A stretch of DNA of 64,000 nucleotides from Biscogniauxia marginata (lineage: Eukaryota > Ascomycota > Sordariomycetes > Xylariales > Xylariaceae), in NCBI GenBank assembly GCA_022695795.1, contig MU404072.1, positions 311,864 through 375,863 on the forward strand, read 5' to 3'. The notes under the pieces were generated by a model that saw nothing but the letters and a program-made list of their open reading frames with translations, made no database searches and was not told the origin of the DNA. Positions within the stretch are counted from its first letter, which is position 1. Each line of letters opens with the position of its first letter. Of this stretch, positions 29,448 through 48,982 are shown in pieces. The translations under genes and the position numbers were made by a program.

Positions 29448-30005
29448 ACTCTTGTGCTATTCTAGAAAAGAGAACTGGTTTTTTTCTTCTCCCCCTTTTC
29501 TCCCCATCAGCCTAGCCTAGTCGATGTAAGTATGTTCAATTTGTACGAATAGTCTCACCGTGGAATAGAGCATTTCAATTCGGAACATTATTTTACTTTA
29601 AGATCCCAATCTTAGGAAGTTGTGCCGACCTTGATCAGTTTCAGCAGTAGAACCTCCTAGATCTATGAACGCTATGCACAGCCAGAAGGCAAATCTTTGA
29701 TATCTCATAACCCAGCATTTCTAAACCCCTTTCTCTCTCTAGGCGTGTTTAGTTAGACATGCACAACAAAGACTGATAGACTGCGGTGCCAAACAACCCT
29801 CTTTGTTCGTCAGACACATATCAAACAACATCATTGTCTTAAGAAATGCACATTATTATTGCTTCTCAGGTTTTCGCCAAATATATTATGTGTAAACTGT
29901 TCCGGGTGATCGGAGCTCCTGTAAACCAAGGCAAACCATACCGAGAACTAGACGACGCTGAATTCACACCATCGATTAGCATAAACCTCAGGGTAAGAAG
30001 AAAAC

Positions 30006-30737
30006 ATGGCCCCTACAATCCATATTATGCGCCATGCCGAAGGATGGCATAACATAGGGATGACTGACACCCGTGATCCCACACTAACTCCTCACGGCCG
30101 ACTCCAGTGTGCCGTGTTCAATACAAGCTTCCCCCTCATGAACGAGGTTACTCACCTCGTAGCGTCGCCGATGCGAAGGACCATCGACACGTGCATCTTG
30201 TCGTTCACTCCGGCATCCGATCGCCTGAAGATAATCTTACTATCCGAGTTACAGGAGGCGGGCAACAGGAGGTCCTCCGAGGGGTCGTCCATAGGTAGGA
30301 TCCAGCTCCGGTACGGCGCTCGCGTGGACACCTCCCTCATCGACCAATATTGGCTCATCAAGAACAAGTACACCAAGTGGGACACCACGGTCCCCAAGGT
30401 CGAGGCCCGCGCCCGGGAGGCCCGCGTTTTCCTCCGGAAGCTCGCCGCGGAGGCGGGCGACGACAACGCGCACATCGTCGTCGTCACGCACAGCGTGTTC
30501 GCGCACTGGCTGACGGAGGATTTCGCCGGCACCGAGGCGGCGGGCTACGACTGGGCGAATATGGAGTACCGGTCTTACCAGTTTGTGGATCTCAACGGGC
30601 AGGACGCGGAGGCCACGCTCACGGAGACGGCCTCGAGCTGCCAGGGACGCGGCGGGGTGCATTGGTCTTCGCTGTCTCAGTCTGAACGGGAGGAGCATAA
30701 GAAGAACGCTTCTAAATTTCTGGAAGCAGTGGAATAA
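30006..30737 (+). CDS. Histidine phosphatase superfamily protein (phosphoglycerate mutase-like)
   Basis: Single exon, 243 residues, start in a good fungal context (AAACATGGCC). The catalytic motif is HIMRHAEGWHN at residues 6-16, a variant of RHG with Ala in place of Gly, as in many fungal PGM-like phosphatases. Further family positions: LTPHGRLQC, VASPMRRTIDTC (second Arg), LSELQEAGNRRSSEGSS, and the second catalytic His in VVVTHSVFAHWLTEDF around residue 163. The C-terminus is short and charged. No signal peptide or membrane segment, so it is probably cytosolic. Family knowledge: these proteins dephosphorylate small phosphorylated metabolites through a phospho-histidine intermediate; the substrate cannot be inferred. 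The preceding open frame beginning at 29846 is in another frame and would only be a leader. Confidence 0.9.
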   Translation: MAPTIHIMRHAEGWHNIGMTDTRDPTLTPHGRLQCAVFNTSFPLMNEVTHLVASPMRRTIDTCILSFTPASDRLKIILLSELQEAGNRRSSEGSSIGRIQLRYGARVDTSLIDQYWLIKNKYTKWDTTVPKVEARAREARVFLRKLAAEAGDDNAHIVVVTHSVFAHWLTEDFAGTEAAGYDWANMEYRSYQFVDLNGQDAEATLTETASSCQGRGGVHWSSLSQSEREEHKKNASKFLEAVE

Positions 30738-32203: not shown

Positions 32204-33402
32204 TTACGCTTCTACAATCTTCCCACTCTCGTCCATTTTCCCGATCACGGGCTCGAACAGCGTAGGCAGGATCTCGGCGGCGTCGCCCTGGAAGAAGAAA
32301 TCCTTGCTCCCCAGCCCCGCGGCCGAGTCCGGATCCGGGTTGACGACGGCGACGATGGCGCCTCTGCGCTGAGCCTTGCGTGTGTAGCCCGCGGCCGGGT
32401 AGACGGTTGCGGCGGTGCCGACGACGAGGATAAGGTCGACGGGGCCCTTCCAGATCCAGTTGTCGACCTGCATAAGCATGTCGTTGTCAAGCGACTCCCC
32501 GAACCAGACGACGCCAGGTCGCAATAGGCCCGTCTTACACTTGGGACAGTGCGGGAGGTCCTCAACCTTGATCTGCGGGACGGGGACATTCGGGTCAAGG
32601 AGCGGGAGCGTCTTGTCGGGTGGGTAATCCTCAGCGGCGGGTGCGAGGGCCGGACACACGGGGTCGCTCAGGTTATTGCGCTCGATGTAGCCGCAGTTGT
32701 TGAAGCACTTGTTGTCGAGGATGCTCCCATGTAGAAGACGTAGCTTGGATTCGGGGTGGCCGGCGCGGGGGGAGAGACCTGATAACAAAAAACAACAATA
32801 ACTTGTCAGCACTAGAACCTACCACACCCATTCTTGCCGCTGTACATATACAGAGATATGGCCGACTCACCGTCAACATTCTGCGTCAAGCACAGGAAGT
32901 TCTCCTTCCGCCTCGCCAGCTCCGCGAGCGCGTAGTGTCCCCGGTTCGGCTGGGCCTTGAGGGCCATGTGGCGGCGCCAGGCGTAGAAGAGCCAGACGAG
33001 GCCCGGGTCGGCCTCGAAGGCCTCAGGGGTAGCGAGCGAGGTGGGCTCGTGATTCCTCCAGAGGCCGCCGGAGCCTCGGAAAGTGGGCAGGCCCGAAGCT
33101 GCGGACAGGCCGGCACCGCAGAGCGCCAGCACGCGGTCGCCCGAGCGCACGAGCTCCTGGAACTCGGCGACGGAGGTCCGGGGAGCCATCGCGCGCGGGG
33201 TCGGGGCTTGGCGGGTCCAGAAGTGTCGGCGCGAGTGGTGAGAGAAGGCCCCGTTGCTACGGCAGATCGTGAGATATCGCACGTAGTAGCGAGAGAGGGA
33301 GAAGAGGGAGGAGGAGGAGGAGGAAGAAGCAGAAGAAGGAGGTGGTTGTGAAATAGAAGAGCGAGGATGATATAGCCGGCAGGTGAAGTGGTACCGGTAC
33401 AT
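32204..33402 (-). CDS. SIRT5-like NAD-dependent protein deacylase (sirtuin)
   Basis: Two exons (33402-32871, 32778-32204; intron 92 nt) give 368 residues from the first ATG or 297 from a second in-frame ATG at 33189 (MAPRTSVAEF). Sirtuin motifs in order: CGAGLSAASGLPTFRGSGGLW (NAD loop), LTQNVDG split by the intron, LLHGSI (catalytic His), CFNNC and CPKC (four zinc-binding Cys), LRPGVVWFGE, VVGTAATVYPAAGY and VNPD. FYAWRR contains the Tyr-x-x-Arg pair that in SIRT5 binds succinyl or malonyl groups, so desuccinylase/demalonylase activity is likely. The extra N-terminal 71 residues are rich in Arg, Ser and Tyr with few acids, like a mitochondrial presequence. I infer mitochondrial and cytosolic forms from the two starts. 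A poly-Ser run in the presequence comes from a GGA repeat near 33306-33330. Confidence 0.93.
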
Positions 33403-34088: not shown

Positions 34089-35552
34089 TCAGACTAGTAA
34101 CCCATCGTCCCCGAACCGAACCCCCCTCTTCCCAACCGCCGTCCCGTTCCCAACCCCCGGGTCCGAGTATATCGTCAGCGTATCCGTCGTGTTATCATAG
34201 TCCGTGCCGCACTTCTCCGAGAAGCCCGCGAACAGGTCCGCGCGCTCCCGCACGTACGCCTCGAACCCGGCGCGCGAGCAGCTTGTACTGGGTCCGTCCG
34301 CGCACACGGGGAGGGGCTGCGGCGCGCTGTTGGCCAGCACGCGGTAGTACTCGCCGTCGGCGAAGCCGTAGCTGCCCTTGCAGTAGAGCCGCTCGATGGC
34401 CAGGTTGCCCAGGAAGGGCAACACGTGCGAGCTCTTCCACGCACGCCGGTGGTTGATCCGGTCCAGGGGCATGGTGTCGTTGATGCTGGACGCACTGCCG
34501 CCGCTGAAGGCCGAGTTGTTGAATAGGCCCATCGCCACGAAGACCATCGGTGGTAGCTCGCGGTGCGTGAAGCTGACGTACAGGTCCTGGTCGCTCGGCT
34601 TGTTGTCTAGCAGTAGGTTGGCAGAGGCGTTGAACCAGGGCAGCCCGACGGGCCCGGCTACCTCGTTGCCATACCCCACGTTGTAGTGGTACTGGATGTC
34701 GGCCGTGTACTCCCACCCGAGCCAGTCGTCGGGCGAGAATAGGTCGAGGTCGCAGAACGGCGAGCTCCCGCGGATCACGGACTCGTAGCCGCACAGCTCC
34801 ATCATGCCGTAGATGTCGTTGGCGGTGAAGTTAAAATCGGGCACCGCCGCGTTTAGCCTCGCCACGATGGGCTTGGTGAACCGTTCGAGGAACACGGCGG
34901 ACTGATCGCTCCCGGCCGACGAGGAATATCTCGGACAGCTCTTGTACGGGGTCAGACTGTCGGCCCCGGACTCTTCGCTCTCGTAGATGCTGATTACGTT
35001 GATGCCGTTATCGTCCGCCTCCAGGCCGCGCACAAAGGACTGCGCGGACTTGAAGGTGCGCTCGGCGGACGACGTCCACACGTGCACGGGCAGCCGCAGG
35101 TTGGGGTACCGGAAGGACAGCACGGCACCGAGCTGCGAGGCTTCGACCTTGCCGACGCGCGTCAGCAGCTCCTGCTCGGCCGCGGTGATGGGTGCAGTCC
35201 AACTAGCGAGGAAGTTGAGCGCGGGGATCTTGGCCCAGTCGATGCCCGTGTGGTTCCCGACCTTGGAGACGAAGGGCTCGATGTACTCCTCGTAGTCGTA
35301 GTCGTTGGCGTAGATGGCCGCGTGGCGCGAGAGATACGCGGCGCGCACCGGCGTGCAGCCCTGCGGAGGAGCAGGGGACGCCGGCGGGGCTTGGGGCTCG
35401 AAGTACGGCGCGACGCCGCCGAGGTGCTCGAGCGGATCAAACGCGTATGTGGAATAGAGCGACGCCGCCGCGCAGAGGCGAGATGAAGCCACTAGAAGCG
35501 GCAGTGCGGCCCTCAGCCATTGCGGCGACTGTCTAAGAACCGTCGAAGCCAT
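34089..35552 (-). CDS. Secreted histidine acid phosphatase-like protein (phytase/MINPP-related)
   Basis: Single exon, 487 residues. The start at 35552 (MASTVLRQSPQWLRAALPLL) opens a good signal peptide ending near LCAAAS; the open frame extends 32 codons further upstream but that part is Cys/Arg-rich and unlikely. Histidine-phosphatase hallmarks: AAYLSRHAAIYANDYDYEEY at about residues 68-87, VHVWTSSAERTFKSAQSF with the second Arg, and VSFTHRELPPMVFVAMGLF as the second catalytic His region. Cysteines near the end (RLYCKG, PVCADG, SCSRAG, EKCGTD) suggest disulfides, and there are several N-glycosylation sites (NHT, NFT, NAS, NNS, NDT, NTT, NGT), in keeping with secretion. Family knowledge: such enzymes release phosphate from phytate or other phosphomonoesters. 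The usual RHGxRxP and HD/HAE motifs are altered here (RHAAIY, HRE), so activity or substrate may differ. Confidence 0.88.
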   Translation of the reverse strand: MASTVLRQSPQWLRAALPLLVASSRLCAAASLYSTYAFDPLEHLGGVAPYFEPQAPPASPAPPQGCTPVRAAYLSRHAAIYANDYDYEEYIEPFVSKVGNHTGIDWAKIPALNFLASWTAPITAAEQELLTRVGKVEASQLGAVLSFRYPNLRLPVHVWTSSAERTFKSAQSFVRGLEADDNGINVISIYESEESGADSLTPYKSCPRYSSSAGSDQSAVFLERFTKPIVARLNAAVPDFNFTANDIYGMMELCGYESVIRGSSPFCDLDLFSPDDWLGWEYTADIQYHYNVGYGNEVAGPVGLPWFNASANLLLDNKPSDQDLYVSFTHRELPPMVFVAMGLFNNSAFSGGSASSINDTMPLDRINHRRAWKSSHVLPFLGNLAIERLYCKGSYGFADGEYYRVLANSAPQPLPVCADGPSTSCSRAGFEAYVRERADLFAGFSEKCGTDYDNTTDTLTIYSDPGVGNGTAVGKRGVRFGDDGLLV

Positions 35553-36726
35553 CACTTGGAAGCGATGTGAGTGATGTTTACCGTTGCGCGTTCCGTGTCC
35601 CGTGTCCCGTGTGTTGTAGCAGCGACGACGACAACAACAGCACAGCACGAAAAGGCAAAAGGTCGGTCAGGACAAGAGTCCATTCTTGTCTTTGTACGTA
35701 ACGTAATGAAATTTAATCATGCTTAGGCATTGATGGATACCCCCTGGCAATATCCGTCGCCTAATACGTGCGTAGGGAGAGGAAAGCATGTCGAGTGGGA
35801 GATGACGGGATGGTTGGATGGTTGGATGGTTGGACTTGTTCCCGCAGTAAAAAGACGACATGACGGCGTCTGGCGTCATGCTTTTATGCCAAGCTTCCAT
35901 CGGACTGGGTCCCGTAGAAAGCTTGTTCCTCCACCTAATCTTCCATTCTGCCCCAGTTTAAGTTCCTGGCACTTGTTAGGTAATCTCGCTTGGCGCTAGG
36001 TCCGTCGAGGTCCTTAGGTACCTACTTGGAGCAATACGTCCGCGTGTAAGTCGTTGTTACATATTAATTCCTGCCCTGGATCGCTATAAGCAATAGGTAT
36101 AAAACCAGATCTCACCAGTGTCATAATATCCGATGTATCATTGGTTCCTAATCCTTGGCGATCGCATTTCATGTTACGCCCCGCATATTATATGTGCATT
36201 AGAATTGTTAGATTTGATAACCACTGTAGCCACAAAGCCTTCCACTAGATCACAGCTCGTTCGCTCACCAATAACACTGCCCGTTCACCTGGAGAGCCGA
36301 AACATTGCCTGTGGATGGTGTGGAAGGGAGGGGTCGGCGTATTCCTCGGCTTTCCGAAAAGGCTGGTGAGATAACTCCGTACAATGTAGCGCCTAGATTG
36401 GTTCCAAGCCCCTCGAGGTGACGTTGCGGCCTTGATAAATATCGTTAGTACAATTATCCTATTTTGCAGCGGCGGTGTGGCTGGAGAGCTGACAAGGTGA
36501 TAAACTTACCTAGGCAGAGCCGAAGCAGGGGTCTGCAAAGCGGATGCTGCTGCTATTGACGTGAGGCTCCGCGTCGTTTCTCTCACACACTCTCTCTCGC
36601 TCGCTCCTTCGCTATATCTCATCCTGGAAAAGGACTAACGATGTGAACAGCGCCCAATAAATGGGATTCTCTTAATTAGTAATTTTTAGAAGACATCTCA
36701 TTAGTCTCGGTGGAAAGGTAGCTTGA
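35553..36726. other. Intergenic region between divergent genes
   Basis: It separates the phosphatase (minus) from the NLR-like gene (plus), so it holds two promoters. An 8-bp GGATGGTT tandem repeat is at 35809-35834. No open frame looks coding. It marks the left border of the proposed amyloid-signalling cluster. Confidence 0.5.
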
Positions 36727-37787
36727 ATGGGCGTCTTTGAACTCACCGAGATGGCCGTCAATTCCCAGAATACCCACCAAGTTAAGGGGAACATTGCTAT
36801 GGATCAGGCGCAGCAGATTAACATCAACCTAGCCTGTCCCCAGACAATGAACGGAAGGATGGTGCAGGACATTATTTTCACTTACTGCGGAAGAACGAGT
36901 GAATACGAGCAGTTGGGCCCTGAGAGTTTGTAGAACACGACTGGGGATGTTATAGAGTTACAAGATTGCTAATTCGTAGGACAGGAAAAAAGTTTCTCTC
37001 CAGTTTAGTTACCCCTGATCTGCTAGCCTCACAGGCCCATGGTGGCTTCTTACCATTACATGAATCCCTTCTAAAAGAATGTTTCCACGAACTTCATGCG
37101 TATAGGCGCGAGGCAAATACGGACATCGAGGATATCCGGAAAGATCAATATTCGGCCTTTGATTCACTAGATGATGATCATGTGGGGATCCTGGATCGCT
37201 GGTTGAGAACAGACGCTGGCTCCGATTTTTTATTATTAGAAGGATATGAAAACATGCCCGATTTGCCGTGCAGCACGAATCTTCTGTTGGAAACACTACA
37301 TTGCTTCCAAAAGGCTTTGATTAATCCAGGCACGCGAAATGAGATTTCTTTCGTATACCACTTATGTGGTACCGGTGGAACCCTCGATATTCTAATGCAG
37401 GACCTCCTTATCCAACTCCTCGAATCACACCAGGATGAATTCCATAATTCCGATACCAATCATTCAGATTACCTCACAATAGAGCAATTTCGCAAGGTGG
37501 CCAACTCTCAGGAGCTTTGGAGAATGTTTATGCGGTGTATCAACCGAGCTGGGATACGAAAGCTCATGATTATGCTCGACCATATTGAATACTATTCGGA
37601 AACTCATAACCAGATCCAACCATACAATCTGATTGAGGAACTGGATTCCCTCATCCAAGAACTCAGGGGCAGAGTCACTGTGAAAGTGATGGTCACCAGC
37701 AATTGCCCCAAGATAAGGTCGAATTTTGACGGAATCGGTGCTTGTAATCTTTGGCTACCTCATCCGTATCACCGTATGAAAGGTTAA
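36727..37787 (+). CDS. NLR/STAND-like protein, truncated, with N-terminal amyloid (r0-like) motif
   Basis: Model: exons 36727-36898 and 36985-37787, 324 residues, intron of 86 nt (GTGAAT...ACAG, GCTAAT branch site). A weaker alternative intron is 36912-36979. Residues 19-36 hold VKGNIAMDQAQQININLA, matching the motif N-x-[AV]-x3-[SA]-x-Q-x-N found in two downstream genes. After it comes a region resembling the pre-NACHT and P-loop part of fungal NLRs: LKECFHELHAYRREANTDIE, then a position where Walker A is expected (LLLEGYENMPDLPCSTN, residues about 139-155) that has no GxxxxGK[ST], and a Walker B-like LMIMLDHIEYY near 250-260. No WD, ANK or TPR repeats follow; the frame stops where the NTPase domain would continue. 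A further 30-codon open run in another frame (37819-37908) may be decayed C-terminal sequence. I infer a degenerate receptor able to template its partners but not to hydrolyse ATP normally. Family call is tentative. Confidence 0.5.
36781..36834 (+). other. r0-like amyloid motif of the NLR-like gene
   Basis: Encodes VKGNIAMDQAQQININLA. Key positions N22, A24, A28, Q30, N32 line up with all four copies in the HeLo-like effector and the small Q/N/G-rich protein. Its place at the N-terminus of a STAND-type protein is that of r0 in NWD2. Confidence 0.55.
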
Positions 37788-38125
37788 GAAGCAAAGGAAT
37801 CATTGTGAGAAATTTTAGAAGGAGCTAGTGGGAAGGCGAGATAGCTGGCTACCAGTACCGGAATGGCAACACACCCCTGACCCAGTCTACCTGTCAATCG
37901 AGGTATAGAAGTAATCCCGAGGAATCTGTGTCGTATAATACCATCGAGTCCCATGTAAAGAACGACGAGATATGAACAGGGCTAAACGAGGTTACTACCG
38001 ACAACATTGTATATAATTTGGTTCCAAGGTCCAAAGAAAAGACTTGTTGCCTAGATACTCAAATACGACACCCATAGATAAGAAATTGATCATATAATCA
38101 TCAAGTTAGCCATTCCAAATTCTTC
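37788..38125. other. Short region between convergent genes
   Basis: It holds the 3' ends of the NLR-like gene and the AAA+ gene. One open run (37819-37908, ending ...VPEWQHTPDPVYLSIEV) is in a different frame from the NLR-like gene and may be its decayed tail. Confidence 0.4.
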
Positions 38126-40745
38126 TCACCTGCTCTGTGCAAACCCTTGAGTGAGGTGCAACCCTCTGTTACGGTTCAGCTGAGCAGGAGGTTGGGACAT
38201 AAAGTCTCTGAACCCTTTATAAAGCCTAAGAATTTCCTTGATGTGATGTGTTCTCAAGTTATCTAAAATTATATGTCAGCAATTACTATCAGAAATATGT
38301 GTCTTTAATCACAGTGAGATTATGAAAATCTTGTGTCAGGGGCCCAGTACTTAGCCTCCTAGTTTAGGGCATCCCTAGACAGCGTTGCAACCATAATTGG
38401 GTGTAAATGCTGTTGCCACTAAGAGGACTCGGAGGCCCTTACATGAAAGAACGTGATAAAGGGAAATGACTGACATGAAAGGAATACTGTATTTACTTAC
38501 TCTCGTGGTTATGAACAAGGGCTAATGCTGCGCTTATGCAGTTCCTAATCTGCCGTCCATTCATGCTTGTGTACATCCCTTGATCTAGGCTCTCGAGATC
38601 GTCCCTGATGAACAATTCGAGATCTTGCTTCCCGACCGGGGTCAGATTCTCAAGACGCTGAATCAAATTGGTCCAGATTATCTTTTGAACGTTGAAGTCG
38701 AATTGGGGTAGTTCTAGCATAATGTGGATGCGCGAGTCGATGCCCCGGTCAAATTTGGCAATGTGGGTGGTGGTCATAAAGAGTAAAGCTTCTGAATAGT
38801 CTAGGTGGTGGAGGAAGATGGAGACAGCGATATTGCGTTTCAAGCTGAACTGATCACGGTTTTGCAAGAAGATGTCAGCATCATCAAGCAATAGAATTGC
38901 TCTCCAATTCGTAGCTCGGAGTAGAGCTGTACGAAGTTGCTGTTCGAGGATGTCGAGGTCGGCACGCAAATCGGTACATGTTACCGTGTATAGAGGAACC
39001 CCGTACTTCTCTGCTAGACATTCTACGCGCAATTAGGCAACTTTATAATCCAAGTTGGGAACAATATCTTCCACGGTAAATATATCGTGGCTTTAAAAGG
39101 GTGGGACTGTACAGGAGACATACCTGCTGTTAAAGTTTTCCCCGTTCCAGGACCACCATGCAAGAGAATATTGAGACCGTTTCCTTTTCCTTTGATGAAG
39201 TCAATATTGGTAGTGCCAGATCTATTTTTCAGATGTGCGAGCAACGTAGATTCGAGGAGTTTCTTGTGGTCTGAGTCCATCCATAACTGCTTAAGGGCGT
39301 CGTCACCCCCTTCCTGGGCTTGAACCTTGGTCAAATCTTGTGGTAGCACCATCTTCCAAGATTTATGTTTCATGGAGAAAGCCCATACTCTGGATGGACA
39401 GAAAAGCAGCGAATCTTTACTGTCGTTGCTGCCCCTTTCAGGTCGCTCATCCACCAGGACCCTTCTTGCACACACATCGGGATCGTGTGAAATCCTACTA
39501 GGATAAGAATTGAGATTGATAACTTCTCCAATACATGCGGCGCATGAGTTATCGGTCCCAAGATTAGTATAAGCTTGGTCTTGTTCATGCTTGCTGTCGG
39601 TCACATAGTCAACAATGACTTTCACTCGATCCTAACTGCTCAGTCAGCAAATAGATGAGAACCATTTTCACCAGAGTACATTACATTCTGCTGTGTTCGT
39701 GGCCATGCATCCCCGTGGTATTCATAATAGAAGACGTCGCCATTGTAGTTCCAGTACATGTCCCCACGTTTGAGCAATTTCTCGCGAAAACCATTGTGAT
39801 GATCGAAGAACCATTCGGGAACCACCTCTAGGCTCCCGATTGTCCTTGTTGAGGAATACGAAGGTACTTGGAGCACTTCGAGTTGCGGAACTAGCCGTCT
39901 TCCCGTTTTATCAAAGTCGAGAAAGTAGCAGTAAATGAGCATCGTATCTGAATGTACACTGACCTCGACTCTCTGAACCTTGTAGGCTCGCCATCCTCCG
40001 TCATCCTTTCTGAGTACGGTGGTTCCCGGTGGGTAAATCACCCAGAGGTCGTCAAAAGCAATCTCATTACAATCTTTCGTCTTGATCTCGTCAAGCTTCT
40101 CCCAGATATGAGGATGCTCGTCCTTCAAGAATTCTAGTAAAGTCTTGATGTGTGCAGCAGTACGCTCTTCATTACTTTTATGTACTGCCTGCGACAACTT
40201 CTCTCTATTATAGAATATCAATTTGTAGGGTTCATCGATGCTTGTTGTCGGGGAAAAAGGGGCATCTTTCCGATAGACATTTGAGTAGCCAATCGTAGCT
40301 CCATTCAGAGCATCAATCAACTTCGGACAAACTATTCTTAAAGCAGACTTCTCCCGAATGAATTGCCTCTCGAATATGAGCTCCTCGGTCTCTTGGTTTC
40401 GAACTTTTAGAGGCATGAGCGTCTTAGACAAAGGATACCGATGCTGTACGTGAATAAAATAGGTTATATTTTCAGTTTAAGCACATGTATTATCAAAAGG
40501 AGGACTCGAAAAGGACAAAGGAGGCCTACCTGACATGTTTGCTCACACGTTGATGGAGATGTGACGGTCTCCACAGTCGTGCTTTCATCGTGAGCATGGA
40601 AAGATGGATTTTTGGTGCCTATGTCTGACCCATATCCTGTCCCCGTTGACATTGGTGACATTACATTCCTGCTTCTAGGTCGAGGGATTGGCAGACTTGG
40701 AGCATGACTCGTGCCGGCGCCTGGCTTTGCTTGGGTCTGTCCCAT
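38126..40745 (-). CDS. AAA+ ATPase with N-terminal DUF7025-like domain
   Basis: Five exons (40745-40530, 40443-39685, 39631-39124, 39022-38501, 38262-38126) give 713 residues; the 53-nt second intron removes a stop and restores WPRTQQN-DRVKVIVDY. Layout: a Ser/Pro-rich N-terminus (residues 1-72); a domain of about 250 residues of the type that precedes AAA modules in many fungal proteins (DDLWVIYPPGTTVLRK, VEVVPEWFFDHH-like stretch, GDMYWNYNGDVFYYEYHGDAW); then the ATPase with Walker A GGPGTGKTLTA (split by intron 3), Walker B AILLLDDADIFLQ, MTTTHIAKFDRGIDSRIHIML with the Arg finger region, and a helical lid ending in exon 5 (NLRTHHIKEILRLYKGFRDF). Both Walker motifs are intact, so it should be active. 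The cellular role is unknown. It sits inside the amyloid-motif cluster but carries no copy of the motif. Confidence 0.85.
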
Positions 40746-43311
40746 ACTGCTACATATGTTTGCCGTATACTGAATTACCAATAGTAATGAATAAGAAGGG
40801 AAAAAATAAGTGGGAAATAACTTGCCAAGCTATTTATAACGAGAACACCCTTGACTGGGCGGCAGTGTCATGTAGCAAATCTACCTAGCTACCCAAAAAT
40901 TGCCTTCATCCACCACTATGAAATCCAGGTCCCCCCCACCAGAATGATAAGCACAATACTTCATACAGTCAATAGGGGGCGGAACACTACCCATGAAGAG
41001 CATATATTGCAACCACAGATACATCGTGAACCAGTTATAACTCTCCTTGACCCTACATGTCAGAAGCATCCACTGGGGGTCATCAGGAAATACTTAGAAG
41101 CGGTGAGGACACAGGTACAACAGCGACAGGAAACAAAGTGACTTGTTGTATATGAAATAACCGCTTTGGAGGCACCTTAAGTTCTAGCCCTTCGGACAAC
41201 AGCTATGTTGTTACCTTGTCCTAAGACTCGCATCGTGATACTACCCAGGATTATGACATCCAGAATGTGATAGCGAAGCCTACATGACATTAGCTCGGCA
41301 TCTCAGAGAGGAGCCATATCCAATAAGACCCTCCCTTGGGTATCATGGCTCCCACACTGCTACGTGTAAACATACGTCTTGCCGATACAGCTGCAAGTTG
41401 ACTTGTCTCTGCAGCCACTAACATCCATGATCGAAGGAAAAGCACACAGATTCACCCGTTACGTGTCAGCTCGAGGCATATTTCTTGTCCGTATTTTGCA
41501 ATACTACGGAAGTTCGCCGCTTTAGAACGCATGTCTCAACATATTCTATATATGCCTGCATGCCGTCTGGAGAAGGCTCATCGAATCAAGTGATGTGGCG
41601 TCACCGCCGTATATAGAGCAGAAGAGGGGAAATATGAGCATTATGAGATGGTAGGCTATCGATTTCGATAGGCTTCGTCGCCCTAGCCTGACAAGATAGG
41701 CATTAGGAACACGACTGGTTGGAGATGGACCTGCCATTTTGGTTTGGGGCGGGTTAGACATTAGAAGCCATATATATTATACGGCCGTTGAAAAATACTG
41801 CGAATGCCCTATGGTATTTCCAACTGAAGGCTTTTACAGGTGTACCGAGGTAGCTTTTGAGCTAATAAACCCGGGTTTGGCAGTACACCACCATGGAATC
41901 GAGGTGATACGCCAAAGACTGAACGAGAATGAAGTTCCCTGGGAAGGTGCAGAAGCTAATCCTAGCACTATTAATAAAATTAAAGCAGCATGCAAAACTT
42001 CTAGTAAGCCATACAACAACGATAGGGTGGCAGGGACTAAGTCGGATATCGTAAGATGCAGATATCTCGTGCTTCGTGGCATGGGTTAAGCTATCACTTT
42101 CGACTTCCGTTCAATACTACTACATGTAATCAGGAGCCTTGTCCCTTAAGGTGATCTCCTATAGAGGCCTCAGAGGTTTCCGGCGCTGGAGACTTATGGA
42201 GGCGAGAGATCGGAGTTGGACAAGGATGATCTGAAGAACAAGGTACTACTATTAATATGCAAAGGGGCACTTGTCGGTGCCTCACTAGTTCCCGCTCTTC
42301 GTACAGTGGCCAAATTATTGCCTAAATTAATGATACCTTGTGAAATCTAGGTAGCGGATTGGTCTGTGTACAACCCCTTCATTGCCAGTTTCGACTAGGT
42401 ACCCTAAAGGTAAAGACCACTGCGTGATGTTTTTACTATTACCCATGATGATGATAAGTCGACGAATTTGGTAACATCCAATGGAATCTTTCATGTAGCA
42501 GTACACTATCTTGGTCCGTAATAATTTGATCAAGAAACTATGATGTTCAAATGGCTTACCACCCAAATCAGTAGTCATCAAACGTATATTCCAACGTATA
42601 AAATGTCTTTTCTATACGAGAAGAACTGCGCCTGACCTTCTGAACGTAACCAATAGGACCCTACCATATTTCTGAAGGATACCTTACTCTATTTGTCCGT
42701 CGTGATTCGCTCAGAACTTTTATAACACCAGGTTTAGCCCGTCTATGATTTGCTTCAATGCAGCCGTTCTACCCACTAGGAACAGAGCCGTTAAAACGAA
42801 TGGACGTGTGGCTAGATTACTTTTCATCTGCCTGATGGTCGAATTCCCAGTCTACTCTGAGTATTACAATGGCAGTAGAAACCACCCCTCTTTAAAAAAT
42901 GGTATTACATTAGGTAGATATATAGGTAATAAAAAGAAGTTGGTCACACCGCGTGTCTTTTTCGTATTTAATGGTATTTGGTGACTTCTATTCAAAGTAT
43001 ACGAGTATTACGTTATACGAGAACTCAGCCTCATGGCAAACAAAAGAAATGGAAAAAGAAAATTGAGAGAATTTTTGGAACATTGACAAACTACTCCTTG
43101 GGAGCTTCCCCTATTTTTGGACTGCTACAGCTATTGCCCCAGCCTACTGTTTCTGCTTTAACATAAGGCATTTTTATAACTCTGCCTCTCGGCATATATT
43201 TAGATTTCCGCCAAGCACATTTTTGATTATTCGCTATTCTATATTGAATATAAAACCTCAATACTCAATTTCGCGGCCCGCTGAAGTTCATTGCCTATAG
43301 TATAGCGTATC
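40746..43311. other. Intergenic region inside the proposed cluster
   Basis: Moderately AT-rich, with no domain recognisable on either strand. One unplaced open frame (41811-42089) is listed separately. It separates the divergent AAA+ gene and HeLo-like gene and probably contains both promoters. Confidence 0.45.
41811..42089 (+). CDS. Hypothetical small protein (doubtful)
   Basis: A 92-codon frame from the first ATG (MVFPTEGFYRCTEVAFELIN...) ending RYLVLRGMG. I do not recognise it. It is open upstream to 41739 without an ATG, so it may be an internal exon or a relic. No amyloid motif, signal peptide or membrane segment is visible. It is kept only because it lies within the cluster and reads more like coding DNA than its surroundings. 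Confidence 0.2.
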   Translation: MVFPTEGFYRCTEVAFELINPGLAVHHHGIEVIRQRLNENEVPWEGAEANPSTINKIKAACKTSSKPYNNDRVAGTKSDIVRCRYLVLRGMG

Positions 43312-44263
43312 ATGGCGAGTATCTCACTCCTTTAACTTAAAATATGTATGCTAACAGTTTGGGGGACGTTAGGATGTACTGAGCGTCGCCGCAGGCATCG
43401 GACAGCTGCTCGGACAGATCAATAGCCTATATCAACAGATCGACGCCGCACGACATGCCGTTAAAACAGCGCCTGAAGTTTTCGCGAACACAAAGGCACA
43501 ATTGGATAATATATCCGACATCTTGAAGGATATTGAACACGAGAAGAACTTTGATACTCCGGCGATTAAGGCCCAGCTCAACCTCCTTACAACTATCATG
43601 AATGAGGCCAGTGGTATACTACACTCTATGAATATGCTACAAGGCAGAAATCGGCTCCTACAGGGTCTGCATGCCTTGATCCACGGACAAAGAGACGAGA
43701 TGAAGCTAGTCAATATTCTCACCCGGCTTGAGAGGGCCAAGGGTGCACTGTTACTACAGATAAATGTCACCCACGTAGGGCTGACAGGATGCCTAGCAGA
43801 AGAGGTGAAGAAAATCGTTCAGAGTAATGAGGCTCTAGCGTCAAGAGAGATTGATCGGCCTGAGATCACACATGATCCAATTCGCGAAGGTAACGAGACA
43901 ACACATTCAAACGAGGGAGCTGAGATCGCGGCTCGGGGGGGGAATAAGCGATCAAAGATATCAAGACATGCACGTTTCAGGAGCAACAGACCAATGGAAA
44001 CCCCAGACCAACTTAAAGGACGAGCCAAAACTATCGTCTTGTCGAGAAATAAGAAGCCAGAGGTCGTACACGAGTTGGTCATCGAGGAGAACAAGGCGAT
44101 CAATAACTCAAATCAAGTTAATGGCATTTTGGGGATGGAAGGCTCTGGTGTGTCGACTACGGCGAAGGTCTTAGGGAACCGGGCGATTGGGATGAGCAGG
44201 CAGCAGAACCTCATTCTGGATTCCTCGAATGCCCTGCAAGTGATCCGGAGCCTCTGTACCTAA
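43312..44263 (+). CDS. HeLo-like cell-death effector candidate with two C-terminal amyloid repeats
   Basis: The main exon is 43373-44263. The first 100-150 residues (VLSVAAGIGQLLGQINSLYQ, then APEVFANTKAQL, LTRLERAKGALLLQINVTHV, GLTG) are helical and match the pattern of N-terminal HeLo-like/SesA-type domains of fungal STAND-associated proteins. A charged linker (residues about 160-235) leads to two repeats: R1 ENKAINNSNQVNGILG with its first Asn at residue 241, and R2 GNRAIGMSRQQNLILDSS with Asn at 270. Both fit N-x-A-x3-S-x-Q-x-N and lie 29 residues apart, as in HET-s-type prion-forming domains. Family knowledge: HeLo-type domains attack membranes after amyloid templating. The start is unusual: ATG 43312 then a 54-nt intron with a GCTAAC branch site and AG at 43372. 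Only a GC-AG donor directly after ATG keeps frame; a normal GT donor at 43319 would shift it. About 297 residues if the GC-AG model holds. Confidence 0.6.
44084..44257 (+). other. R1-R2 amyloid repeat pair of the HeLo-like effector
   Basis: Two motif copies with conserved Asn, Ala, Ser, Gln, Asn spaced identically, 29 residues apart. R2 aligns without gaps to R2 of the small protein at 46173 with about 10 identities in 31 positions, including AK, N, A, Q, N, LD and N. Confidence 0.6.
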
Positions 44264-46172
44264 GGTTTTGGTTGCATACTTCAGCTCGTTACGACGCCAA
44301 TAAAGATAGACCCTTTTCAATGACAGCCCGGTCTCGCCGAGATAGCTGAACATTGCTTAACATACGCAGCCTACGGTCGCAGATCACATCCGTATAGAGC
44401 ACAAATGTTTCCGATGATAAAGTATCTGTATACATTATGAGGCTTACGAGAGCGGGGGGGTATGCAATAGATCACAGCCTACTTGGCTTACACTTTCAAT
44501 CAGGACTCATCTACTTCGCTGGTTCACCCCTCACCGAGAAACAAGGCAGACTGTTCTACATATTTGCCCACTTTTCTTTTTCTTTTTTCGTTTTCTTATT
44601 CATTGATAATGTGACGCCAGGGATTTGATTGGATGCATGTCTAGCCTACCGGATAAGCGCCATGTTATACAACTCAATATATTCATGATGATGAGTAGGT
44701 AGCGATCATATCCAACCATGACGAAAATAATATCAAGTGTAAACTAGGCTGCCGGCAAGTAGCCAGCAGCAGCTACTAATGCTACATTAGCTGTATTCAA
44801 CATACGTACTTGTATATCATCGCCGCAGTTCGCTATTCATTTATATCTATGAATGTACAGCATATAAACAAATCCTTATGTCTTCAGGATTGTATTTAAT
44901 AGATAGCGACTATTATTACTGTTTGACAGGGGGTTGTTATTAAGTTATTATGAAGCCACATCACTGACTCCTTACACGGAGAAAATTGCACATGTTTAGA
45001 TATGCGGGTGTTGGTGACAGCGTCAGCATCAGGGATTATCTGAAGGTTTTACACTGCCCCCTCGTTTACGTTATGCTATACGCCTCTTCTTTACCGAACT
45101 GGCCGACCAGTAGACATGACCAATAGTTTTTGTATGCGTAAATGCCTCACTGTTTGTATCACCGTGCCCTGGATAATTGATTGAGACATATGATGGACTG
45201 TTTTCTCTGTATCTTGTGCATTATATAATGAGATAACTTCTGATAGGATCTTAGTCCGGGTATACGTAAGTTACAAATAGTATTCTAACGGACAGGCGGC
45301 CATGTATTACGTAGTGTTGCAATGCAGATTGTAAAGTTGGATGAGCCGCAGCCTTAATCTGACTTTTATTTTCGTATTAGTTCACATTGGGTATATTCCC
45401 GTCTCTGCACTTCTCTCGCGACATTACAGGTGCATTCATCTTCGTGGTCATCTTAATTCGGTAATTTTACCGGTGTACTATTCTTACGAGCTAACTTCTA
45501 AGACTATTTCTCTCAGAAGCGTGTAGCATATAATATCAACTCCTTAATACCTAGTCACAGCACTTTCATGACTATTAACGACTAATTAATCTACATGTTC
45601 GGCTGTGGACAGATTCGGAAAACTCATGATAACATAGCGATCGACTTGGGTATTTCCCGCAGTAATGTAGCACCTTTAAACAAAGCCTTGCGAGGCTTAC
45701 TGAAACCTTGGGTTGAGCCCTAGTAAATTAAATGTGCACTTTAGTTGCAATCTTTTCGCGCAACTCGCATAACAATCCCAACTCCCCACAGCCACCAAAA
45801 GGGTGCGATAGTCACTTAATACTACCACGATACAAGTTGAAGGATTTTTATCAGCCAATCACTACCCGTACGCTTGACGTTTGCATCACTGAACTGCAAA
45901 GTCGGGCGTTTATGCTGTAGGCAACACTCGGAAGATATCGGTTGTAAACGTGATTGACCACCAGGCTTCACAGCCTAGAACTGATGAGTCTGCTTTATAA
46001 ATTTGGCTCGTTCCTCTCTCCCTTTATGTCTTTGATGTTTTTCTGGCATACTAAACGCTGAGAAAAATGTCTTGCCCCACTGTCCAAACTTCTGGTAAGC
46101 CTCTATCACTCATGTAGGAATCCTCTCGATGGAGAACCTACATTCTATCATCTATGATCTGCACTAATCGAG
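44264..46172. other. Intergenic region inside the proposed cluster
   Basis: AT-rich compared with the coding parts; open frames are short. An ATG at 46067 followed by GTAAGC looks like a mini-exon (MSCPTVQTS), but joining it to 46173 breaks the downstream frame, so I leave it out. This is probably the promoter and leader of the small Q/N/G-rich gene. Confidence 0.45.
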
Positions 46173-46712
46173 ATGAATGGATACTTAGATGCTTCCAACA
46201 CTATGAGCTGGACCGAACAGCGCGAGCTTGTGCTTCATCGCCCTGCCAACGGACCTAGCATGACAACCATGAATGCGAACAACCCCCCTCAAACAGGAGG
46301 TTACAACTCCCAAAACTCAGGGGGATACAACCAGCATGGAGTTCCGGCTGGGCAATTCACCGCACAAGTGAAGCACGAGATCCAAATCGGTACGCACTAT
46401 CTGTTGAAATATAAAGTCTCGCTAAGCTAAGGCGCATAACACATTTCTTTCTCCTAAACCACCACTATCATTCCCTTAGTTCTTCTTACTTAGCAACTAC
46501 AAGACTACTAACATTTGAGGAAATCATGTATAGAAAAGAACGAAGTTGGTGGCATGGCGAAACAACGCAATTTCGTCGCGGCGGACAGATACCAGCATGC
46601 GGTCAACGCTAAGATTGTTTCGAACAAAGCGAGTACCTCGGCGATCCAAGCCAACGGGGTTCTAGATGCGAACAACATAGAGCTGATGATAAAAAACGGC
46701 CTTTTCAACTGA
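46173..46712 (+). CDS. Small Q/N/G-rich protein with two amyloid repeats, no effector domain
   Basis: Exons 46173-46389 and 46534-46712 (intron 144 nt, GTACGC...TATAG, ACTAAC branch site) give 131 residues. The first 55 residues have no fold I recognise, with a prion-like low-complexity run (NPPQTGGYNSQNSGGYNQHG). The C-terminal half holds R1 EKNEVGGMAKQRNFVAAD (first Asn at residue 75) and R2 SNKASTSAIQANGVLDANN (Asn at 103), 28 residues apart. Both fit the motif shared with the HeLo-like effector and the NLR-like protein. The splice junction falls right before R1, in phase, which supports the model. No signal peptide or membrane segment. I infer a partner, seed or regulator of the effector amyloid; a truncated second effector is the alternative. 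Confidence 0.6.
46534..46703 (+). other. R1-R2 amyloid repeat pair of the small protein
   Basis: Two copies of N-x-[AV]-x3-[SA]-x-Q-x-N with N75/V77/A81/Q83/N85 and N103/A105/A109/Q111/N113. The spacing is 28 residues, against 29 in the HeLo-like effector. Confidence 0.6.
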
Positions 46713-48982
46713 TAGAGCGTTTCGTCATATAGTCTTCTTTTTTCGGAGAAGGTTATGGCTATCCGATGGCTTAGGTGAACGTTAGTAGGATAGTGCGGCT
46801 GCTACGGTAGTTGTCAGCTTATTACATGTCGAATCATCAATGCGGCACAGCGCACACTTTTTCTTGAATACAAAAATTCTCGTTATCATATCTAGGAGCA
46901 CAGCGAAGTTTGTCCCGGACCCAGTTCTTGATCGCGTACACAAATGGGACGAATAAAGTGAAAGGGGGTTACTATCTTGAACAATATATAGACCCTTTGT
47001 TCTTGCCATTAAGGAAGTAAACCTCATTGGTCCAAAGAGCTTGAATCGTAACATTAGCTCCTGACACACCTTTATATGTGCTTACCTGTTGCGTCCCAGA
47101 ATGAGGTTATTACGCTATGATAAGGGCACATATAGTCCACCTTCACCTTATATATTGTATTCGACTTTCCGGCCCCCACCTTTGAGGCCATATTTGCCCC
47201 GTAAAATTATCTTATTCAGTTACAGTACGCTACTGGTAGATAGTCTAAATGGCGTAGCAAGTAGAGTAAAATTACCAGACATTGGTGCCTTTCTTCCTTC
47301 TAAGCTAGCTAATATATCCACAGCTATAGACAATTTCACTATTTCTCTAAAGGCCCTGTCTAGGAAGTTAAACAACTGAGCTAGAATGATTCCTGTAAAT
47401 ATATTTAGACAGAAAAAAAAGAGGAAAGGAAGGAGAGAGAATGAAGAAGACGAAAGGGGTATCGATTAATTACTCATGTCATCATCTTGTACAATGAATC
47501 CATGTGGAGATGCCTACCCACCAGTTATCACTACCGTGTAGCGTGCTGTGCTAGACGAATCTACCATAACTATTTTGTGGATTATCAACGTGGCCATATA
47601 GCATGGTAGATCATGGATCACGTATATCACATTGCAAGTCTTACGCAAGGGAGGCCGGGGAAGAGATCTAGTTGTATGATATAACATGGAAGCAACAGCA
47701 GGGGAAGAATACAGCATCTTCAGCTCGATGTACAAAAAGGTAAGGAGTAGTAGGCCTACGTTAACTTTAACACGCTACATTTTTTAAAAAAAAAGTTCTA
47801 AGTGAATTTTGTACTTTAACTTCTGGCAAGGTCCTTCTTCTTGAATACATATGGACTAAGACTTATCGCGAACGCGAGGGGCCTAGTGTGCCGTAAAGGG
47901 TATGTAGTAGGTCTGAGCTAAAAAGATGATTGGCTGCAAGTCCCCTGTACTACGTACCCCTATTTCTGGGGATATCACGTGGTAGCATGCGTGCCATCCC
48001 TGAATGGTCTGGGTTAGACGTTGACGCGCAGGTAGGCGATAATTTGGTATCGCATCATTAGAAAGACGAATCAAGGTCAGTGCATGGTACATGTAACCAT
48101 TGACGGCAAGGGAATGGGCGGCATTGCATCAAGCGAGAAGGGACTTGCGTAAACGTTCCAGAATCGTCGCATAGGATTGGATAGATCAGTGCAGTGCTCA
48201 TGGAGAGTAATTCGATATAAACCGACTAGGAAGCTAACTACATCTTTACCAATTCCAATATCCATATCAGAACACCCCGGCCTGAAGAAAAGTAGTATAT
48301 ATCTAAGAAAATAGATAACTTGAGCGATACCCTGCGGACAGGAAGGCAGGTAGGTAGAGGTAGTTCAATTAAATTGAACGAATTGGTCAACTAGATGAAA
48401 AATGTAGGTAGTCCGATATCCGATGTAAGACTTCGCCAATGAGTGAGCGAAGGAAAAGGGAGAAGAAAAGCGAAAAGGGGAAGGGGGGATCCTTCTCATA
48501 TAATAATTCGAGTAAGCCTCCAACGTTATATTATCACTATGCAAAACGAGAATGCGTAAGCTAATAATATATGGAGCAAACTATACCTTCCGTGTGCGTG
48601 TAATCATCTACGAATGCCAGGCCCAAGAGTACTAGATAGTAGAGGTGTTTTGAATCGGTGTACCTAACTAACCATTTAACTTGTAAATAACGACAGAGTA
48701 AGTAGGTAGTAGTTATCTTTATATATGTAATTAAGATAATGCAATGTTAAGTTACAATACGAAATAAGCCTCCGGCCCTCGCCTCAACGGCGGTATAATA
48801 GTTTCAAACTGATCAATCATTATTTCCGTAACCCATTAAATCCTGTCTATCCATCCCATCTCATCATATTTCATATCTTCAATCAATTAATAATCCAGAC
48901 TTTTTTTTTTGTTATTACAATTCCCACCCAAACTTACAATCCCAACTTAGACATCCCTCCCATGCCAAGCTTCCTTCGTCTT
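46713..48982. other. Intergenic region, right border of the cluster
   Basis: No gene supported. A purine-rich stretch is at about 47410-47455, an A-run near 47784-47793 and a 17-bp palindrome (GTTCAATT-A-AATTGAAC) at 48363-48379. Open frames such as 47089-47379 show no domain. Confidence 0.5.

Follow-up and report, generated by a model that had tools for sequence, protein, structure and literature searches.

A short motif common to a NACHT-type, a HeLo-like and a motif-only protein: a candidate amyloid-signalling gene cluster in Biscogniauxia marginata

Three neighbouring genes and their motif

Three genes located on the same strand (+) and less than 10 kb apart were found to have one short repeated motif in common in a 64-kb window, the whole stretch of DNA analysed here, which lies within contig C18 (515,856 bases) of the 45.3-Mb assembly of the xylarialean fungus Biscogniauxia marginata. 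Gene 1 (36757–37787) encodes a NACHT-type protein of 325 amino acids with a degenerate P-loop and was assigned using the annotated protein and a NACHT profile. Its exons extend from about 36757 to 36925 and from 36985 to 37787, with the annotated start at 36757 and an in-frame ATG further upstream at 36727. Gene 2 (43312–44263) encodes a HeLo-like domain protein of 297 amino acids with a double motif at the C-terminus. Gene 3 (46067–46712) consists of three exons (46067–46094, 46189–46389, 46534–46712) and encodes a motif-only protein of 135 amino acids.

An earlier inspection of this DNA without database searches, in the following called the sequence-only reading, had listed five copies of the pattern N-x-[AV]-x3-[SA]-x-Q-x-N in three genes within 10 kb. 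Scanning the window in all six frames, we obtained exactly these five matches at 36790, 44090, 44177, 46539 and 46623, all on the + strand and all confined to genes 1, 2 and 3. The spacing of the doubled copies, given before as 28–29 residues, came to 29 residues for the pair in gene 2 and to 28 for that in gene 3. Gene 1 contains a single N-terminal, r0-like copy (NTHQVKGNIAMDQAQQININL, 36769–36831), which was assigned by the pattern of the six other copies and was not significant in a hidden Markov model (HMM) search. In gene 2 the repeats r1 (HELVIEENKAINNSNQVNGIL, 44069–44131) and r2 (TTAKVLGNRAIGMSRQQNLIL, 44156–44218) were defined by motif scan and alignment, as was repeat r2 of gene 3 (VNAKIVSNKASTSAIQANGVL, 46602–46664). 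Repeat r1 of gene 3 (HEIQIEKNEVGGMAKQRNFVA, 46374–46580) is split by an intron into 46374–46389 and 46534–46580.

The pattern was rarely found by chance. When the window was resampled 60 times with a first-order Markov model, it occurred on average 0.033 times per 64 kb with a maximum of 1, and not one of 20,000 residue shuffles each of gene 2 and gene 3 contained two matches. As a control, 267,188 bases from 40 loci elsewhere in the genome were scanned in six frames; these loci partly overlap, take in the surroundings of NACHT and HeLo-like genes, in 15 cases with only about 1.5 kb of flank, and leave out five NACHT places (six of 44 NACHT rows). A single match in stop-rich surroundings was obtained there, and none for the stricter pattern [VI]xxNx[AVT]xxx[SA]xQxN. 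We were aware that the pattern had been chosen after the copies were known, and leave-out profile tests therefore count for more. A profile built from the last 66 residues of both the gene 2 protein and its 50%-identical relative from B. mediterranea (P0002) ranked the gene 3 exon directly after gene 2 (E value 4.3e-4, 6,117 frames), with the next frame at an E value of 2. A single-repeat profile, also built without gene 3, detected gene 3 at an E value of 8.7e-6. The modules of genes 2 and 3 are homologous, and the two-copy module that the sequence-only reading had ascribed to gene 3 was recovered by profiles that had not seen it.

The motif extends beyond 11 residues. When the two copies of B. 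mediterranea are included, all seven copies have V or I three residues ahead of the first N, and six of them have I or V twelve residues after it. At the DNA level the window copies have 23–31 of 63 bases in common in a comparison in which the row of gene 3 r1 contains intron bases; the codons differ at Q and at the second N, and the first N is AAC in all five. These low values and the differing codons rule out a recent DNA-level duplication of the motif. In a search for prokaryotic relatives of the module, 29 stretches matched a pattern and none was confirmed; searches of solved structures gave one chance match each (E values of 2.1 and 0.46), and the PADLOC search yielded nothing convincing (best E value 0.014).

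The three proteins and their surroundings

The HeLo-like domain of gene 2 comprises residues 2–158 (43373–43843, +) and was delimited by hhalign, shuffles and the identity to P0002. Using hhalign against four HeLo-like (PF17111) proteins of the same genome, a probability of 94.6% was obtained over residues 1–136. A HeLo-like profile scored 24.4 bits for gene 2 and 32.5 bits for P0002, compared to 10.9 bits for the best of 2,000 shuffles. In the Pfam scan PF17111 (named PigL_N in the Pfam copy used) was not listed for gene 2 or P0002 and no hit exceeded the cut-off; the best related match of gene 2 was SesA with 16.6 bits (cut-off 26.3). P0002 was the sole relative found for the annotated gene 2 protein (P0001, 297 amino acids) besides itself among 1,478 candidates. 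Comparing both, identity amounted to 95/157 in the HeLo-like domain, 14/73 in the linker and 35/66 in the module. Within the 11-residue motif cores, 9 residues are identical in r2 and 3 in r1, where only N, Q and N are kept. The order of the repeats is kept as well (r1–r1 11/24 and r2–r2 15/24 identical residues, crosswise 10 and 7). The module of gene 2 is thus conserved, whereas the linker before it has diverged. On this evidence gene 2 encodes a HeLo-like protein with a conserved two-copy C-terminal module, in agreement with the effector originally suggested.

A TAG codon directly precedes the second codon of gene 2, so the start methionine has to come from a spliced exon. The best model consists of an exon with the ATG alone (43312–43314), a GC-AG intron (43315–43372) with a GCTAAC branch site and a second exon (43373–44263). 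P0001 and P0002 both start with MDVL, which agrees with this model, and the first exon of gene 2 is probably the ATG alone. A structure model based on the two-row alignment showed helices up to residue 156 and little beyond, with a predicted local distance difference test (pLDDT) value below 50 from residue 119 on. A fold search with this low-confidence model returned many unrelated bundles, generic ones of the BAG, syntaxin and spectrin types; chains of HeLo or MLKL were not among the best 50 rows, which does not exclude the fold. Residues 251–269 of P0001, located between the repeat cores (NGILGMEGSGVSTTAKVL), superficially resemble a P-loop and gave a sub-threshold HerA match. The part NGI[LV]G[MI]EGS of this stretch is kept in P0002, and it is probably a glycine-rich loop only.

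The three-exon model of gene 3 has splice sites in phase and yields 135 residues; a model with two exons that begins at the ATG at 46173 is possible as well. About 28 mixed residues are followed by a 38-residue N/Q/G-rich stretch, in which N, Q, G, Y, S, P and T together make up 79% and K, R, D and E are absent, and by the two-copy module. Splicing of the divided first repeat generates an r1 start HE[LI]x[VI], as found in gene 2 and P0002. In all three proteins r1 begins in this way and r2 with xxA[KC][VI], and a kept repeat order in gene 3 is hinted at. Comparing spliced gene 3 with the unspliced exon, the single-domain score was higher for the spliced form (14.0 versus 8.9 bits, one continuous alignment), while the whole sequence scored 15.2 versus 18.5 bits (E values of 0.0044 versus 0.00043). 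In the main exons of gene 3 the read frame had the best codon score of all six frames, with 0.151 and 0.256 compared to a 95th percentile of 0.056 and a maximum of 0.316 in 265 intergenic windows, a weak measure that gave only 0.043 for gene 2 and -0.102 for the gene 1 main exon. A HeLo-like remnant belonging to gene 3 was rejected: with a profile of the gene 2 N-terminus nothing significant was detected between genes 2 and 3 (best frame 45094–45270, - strand, E value 4.7), and elsewhere in the window, gene 2 apart, no frame did better than an E value of 0.67 (42544–42672).

Gene 1 corresponds to an annotated B. marginata protein (P0003, F5X99DRAFT_407172) with 97% identity to the model built here, from which it differs in the start and the splice donor. 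With a NACHT profile from 15 stretches of the same genome, gene 1 passed the threshold (E value 9.8e-4) and no other frame of the window did. The alignment runs through the Walker-B region LMIMLDHIEYYSE to VKVMVTSN and includes residues before and after Walker B only; gene 1 holds the later part of a NACHT domain. Pfam NPHP3_N scored 15–15.6 bits, below its cut-off of 24.8. The motif copy of gene 1 sits at the extreme N-terminus and fits the stricter pattern, which was defined by the other six copies and appeared in 62 of 200,000 sequences obtained by shuffling the first 50 residues. Gene 1 encodes a short protein of NACHT type, which may be a worn receptor, and not a full NOD-like receptor (NLR).

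Genes 1 and 2 are separated by an AAA-ATPase gene (38493–40431, - strand) that lies in several frames and shows DUF7025 as well as a weakly matching AAA lid domain of fungal type; the six-frame scan revealed no motif copy in it. The region 36001–48000 is poorer in GC (43–46%) than the three 2-kb blocks on each side (47.5–60%). Ordinary neighbours are a histidine phosphatase of branch 1 (29997–30737), a SIR2-type protein (32204–32818) and a histidine phosphatase of branch 2 (34089–35666). A NACHT (NPHP3_N) fragment interrupted by an in-frame TGA (C18:391623–391901, locus L023) is located about 16 kb past the end of the window and about 33 kb downstream of gene 3, and no motif copy was found in it.

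Motif periodicity and published amyloid motifs

According to PMC4518210, NWD2/HET-S pairs combine one repeat (r0) in the receptor with two (r1–r2) in the effector, and their HRAM motifs fall into five families (HRAM1–5). HRAM repeats comprise 21 residues, joined by a loop of 6–18 residues, with a core at positions 5, 8, 10, 16 and 18. Positions 3 and 20 hold large polar residues and position 19 a glycine, and the arches consist of two and three polar residues. The core is described as hydrophobic, sometimes with T at position 10, Q16 in HRAM5 and Q18 in HRAM4 (PMC4518210). The r0/r1–r2 layout recognized earlier in genes 1 and 2 corresponds to this description.

Seven copies, five from the window and two from P0002, were tested in ten registers by column permutation. 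In one register, with the first N at position 8, the conserved columns fell on the HRAM core positions 5, 8, 10, 16 and 18. The p-values of 2.5e-4 for five core positions and 2.1e-3 for seven (4.5e-4 and 4.7e-3 for the window copies alone) are optimistic, as the permutation ignores beta-strand alternation, and registers N-9 and N-5 were also clearly above zero. With the first N taken as column 0, conservation is highest in columns -3, 0, 2, 6, 8, 10, 12 and 13, and the steps of 3, 2, 4, 2, 2 and 2 up to column 12 equal the HRAM arch spacing. In the best register the core reads V/I5, N8, A/V/T10, S/A14, Q16, N18 and mostly I/V20. Positions 5, 10 and Q16 fit the HRAM type in 7 of 7 copies, and the loops of 8 residues in gene 2 (29 = 21 + 8) and 7 residues in gene 3 lie within the published range.

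Likeness to NWD2/HET-S is also given by the arrangement of the genes: a HeLo-related protein below the limit of 310 amino acids used for HRAM effectors carries two C-terminal repeats, and a neighbouring gene encodes a NACHT-type protein with one N-terminal match to the pattern, not significant by profile. Q16 as in HRAM5, the loop length and the kept repeat order add to this likeness. Differences are evident as well. Positions 8 and 18 are polar, with N in all seven copies, against the hydrophobic rule for HRAM; glycine 19 is present in 3 of 7 copies, the others having L, L, F and I; position 3 (column -5) is not conserved and provides no polar seal; and position 20 is I or V in 6 of 7 copies and not polar. 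A diglycine tail is missing, an extra motif-only protein is present, and gene 1 matches only in part. Pfam HET-s_218-289 (PF11558) gave no match up to an E value of 10 in P0001, P0002, P0003 or gene 3, a negative result of little weight since only 38 of 155 HRAM proteins match this model (PMC4518210). In the B. marginata genome it gave no match, and no control matched either. Membership in HRAM as such was rejected on glycine 19 and positions 8 and 18, and the motif was not filed there. Judged by its periodicity, which it shares with HRAM, the motif would work like HRAM while being kept outside of it.

Clusters of three genes with one motif are known for PP (PNT1/HELLP/SBP) and sigma (HET-eN/SESA/SESB), with a lipase-like third partner (PMC5485727). 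The PP cluster (PMC5485727, PMC7889193) is similar in having three genes, one motif and a conserved Q. In contrast, SBP is a putative lipase whereas gene 3 has no enzyme domain, and the core here is [SA]xQxN instead of NxGxQxGxN, with two copies in the effector. The PP signature was not found, since G at both Q-2 and Q+2 occurs in 0 of 7 aligned copies. The sigma cluster likewise consists of three proteins with one motif and one HeLo-related domain. However, the sigma motif is described as having about 40 residues with two submotifs and threefold repetition, and its third partner as a predicted lipase (PMC5485727); by this signature sigma was rejected. The Pnp_Udp-associated motif (PUASM, PMC9815663) resembles the present case by a Q-containing motif in a NACHT protein and its neighbour. 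Its signature FxGxGxQxxGxGxF is absent from the aligned copies and no PNP_UDP Pfam hit was obtained, leading to its rejection. The suspicion that the motif differs from the known families is thus borne out for the HRAM, PP and PUASM signatures as these texts describe them. Set apart by such descriptions, the motif may nevertheless equal one of the unassigned classes NLR17, 19, 20 or 34 or the HRAM2/4-like class of PMC9815663.

A proposed polar-core amyloid-signalling pathway

In the established systems, an activated NLR stacks its r0 rungs, the r1–r2 region of a HeLo-type protein is templated into a beta-solenoid, and the pore-forming domain is freed (PMC4518210, PMC7889193, PMC5485727). We assign a probability of about 0.6 to the reading that the cluster represents amyloid-signalling genes of the NWD2/HET-S kind with gene 2 as executioner, templated by gene 1 and/or gene 3. 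The locus is best read as amyloid signalling related to that of HRAM, with a polar core and a third protein of the motif-only type, and an amyloid mechanism appears likely. Gene 2 would combine an N-terminal HeLo-like bundle, relatives of which damage membranes, with a flexible linker and a two-rung module. Templating of this module into a two-rung beta-solenoid would release the HeLo-like domain and the cell would die. The template might be provided by the single rung at the N-terminus of gene 1, by the two rungs of gene 3 or by both. The motif itself would be a 21-residue HRAM-type rung with a partly polar core. Stacking of N8, Q16 and N18 would place asparagine and glutamine ladders at sites that are hydrophobic in HRAM, from which we propose a seeding specificity of its own. 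Having rungs without an effector domain, gene 3 could act as an adaptor spreading the template or as a decoy capping it, and its N/Q/G-rich stretch could help in gathering. Gene 2 fits the executioner role well and gene 1 the r0 role in part.

Besides the deviations from HRAM described above, several observations weigh against this reading. The P-loop pattern GxxxxGK[ST], present in 12 of 15 NACHT frames of the same genome, is missing in gene 1, and its likely place reads LLLEGYENMPDLPCSTN / EGYENMPDLPCSTN. Pfam scans found no sensor repeats (WD40, ANK, TPR) in gene 1, which stops at 37787, the 700 bases beyond the stop having been read in the three + frames only. A protein without P-loop and sensor repeats would make a poor receptor. 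Of the NLR-like receptor of the sequence-only reading, the later NACHT part stands and the full NLR does not. Furthermore, a sub-threshold EF-hand model outscored NPHP3_N on gene 1, its predicted structure was poor (mean pLDDT 36), and no orthologue or other relative besides itself was found among 1,156 candidates, proteins of about 304 to 966 amino acids, a range that excludes longer NLRs. For gene 3, none of 7 candidates from the protein database reached an E value of 10 or better, and it is seemingly not annotated there for B. marginata. Comparing its repeats with those of gene 2, the same order is barely favoured (6 versus 5 and 9 versus 8 of 24 residues).

A decaying cluster would account for part of these findings. 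Here, a former pair of a full NLR and a HeLo-like protein would have left a truncated gene 1 no longer able to sense; gene 3 would be a remnant from the duplication of an effector, and perhaps only gene 2 would be at work. The early stop of gene 1 and the absence of P-loop, repeats and relatives agree with this, as does the codon score of the gene 1 main exon, hardly above that of the best reverse frame (-0.102 and -0.107). However, the second exon of gene 1 is open over 803 bases and in phase with the spliced first exon, and TpA/ApT shows no rise of the kind left by repeat-induced point mutation over 36–48 kb (0.74–1.03). Moreover, both motif copies of gene 3 retain N, Q and N, its exons exceed the intergenic 95th percentile of the codon score, weak as this measure is, and no significant HeLo-like remnant was detected between genes 2 and 3. 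We regard decay as unlikely.

The motif copy of gene 1, which agrees with the pattern, was not significant by profile. It was found at E values of 3.8 (rank 7, module profile) and 2.2 (rank 5, single-repeat profile), outranked by unrelated frames in both leave-out searches, and a profile of the six other copies gave it a domain E value of 25, outside the top rows. If this match was a coincidence, genes 2 and 3 would form the pathway and the true receptor would be a full NLR elsewhere in the genome. The AAA-ATPase gene between genes 1 and 2 is compatible with such an arrangement, and signalling between non-adjacent genes is suspected in PMC9815663. Against it stand the position of the copy, which is found right at the N-terminal end of a NACHT-type protein where an r0 repeat would be expected, the rarity of its pattern in shuffles, and the absence of the motif around the scanned NACHT places, within the limits given above for the control loci. 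A distant receptor appears very improbable to us.

The gene 2 model was poor, with a mean pLDDT of 43 and about 30 in the module. P0002 had no SesA or HeLo-like Pfam match up to an E value of 10, which likewise weighs against the amyloid-signalling reading. The lack of a confident module structure, together with a tail after r2 (residues 276–295) modelled as a helix at a pLDDT of about 30, would suit a homotypic binding element that is not an amyloid, such as a short helix or coil, and that gathers the three proteins. Such an element has little probability in our judgement: conservation alternates with breaks of two and three residues, as in a beta-arch repeat, and not every three to four residues, as in a helix; Asn and Gln occupy the most conserved sites; and the layout is common to proven amyloid systems (PMC4518210, PMC7889193).

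Pyrin-only and CARD-only proteins are regulators of animal inflammasomes. A more daring version of the amyloid-signalling reading, which we consider doubtful, would see in the motif a sixth, polar-core class of HET-s-type rung with a separate seeding specificity, in gene 1 a NACHT mini-receptor without P-loop and repeats, and in gene 3 a motif-only tuner comparable to these regulators, acting as adaptor or capping decoy. A literature search covering titles and abstract openings found no paper joining Biscogniauxia with HET-S and no title on a motif-only partner.

If the amyloid-signalling reading is right, a motif-only protein of two rungs next to an N/Q/G-rich stretch would represent a type of regulator not encountered in the fungal amyloid-signalling literature surveyed, and simple fusions could be used to test for adaptor or decoy action. 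The cluster would also show that the signalling rung may be present even in a NACHT protein lacking both P-loop and sensor repeats. Finally, the HET-s-type rung would extend beyond the hydrophobic core, and nature would have provided a case in which to test how the core residues determine seeding specificity.

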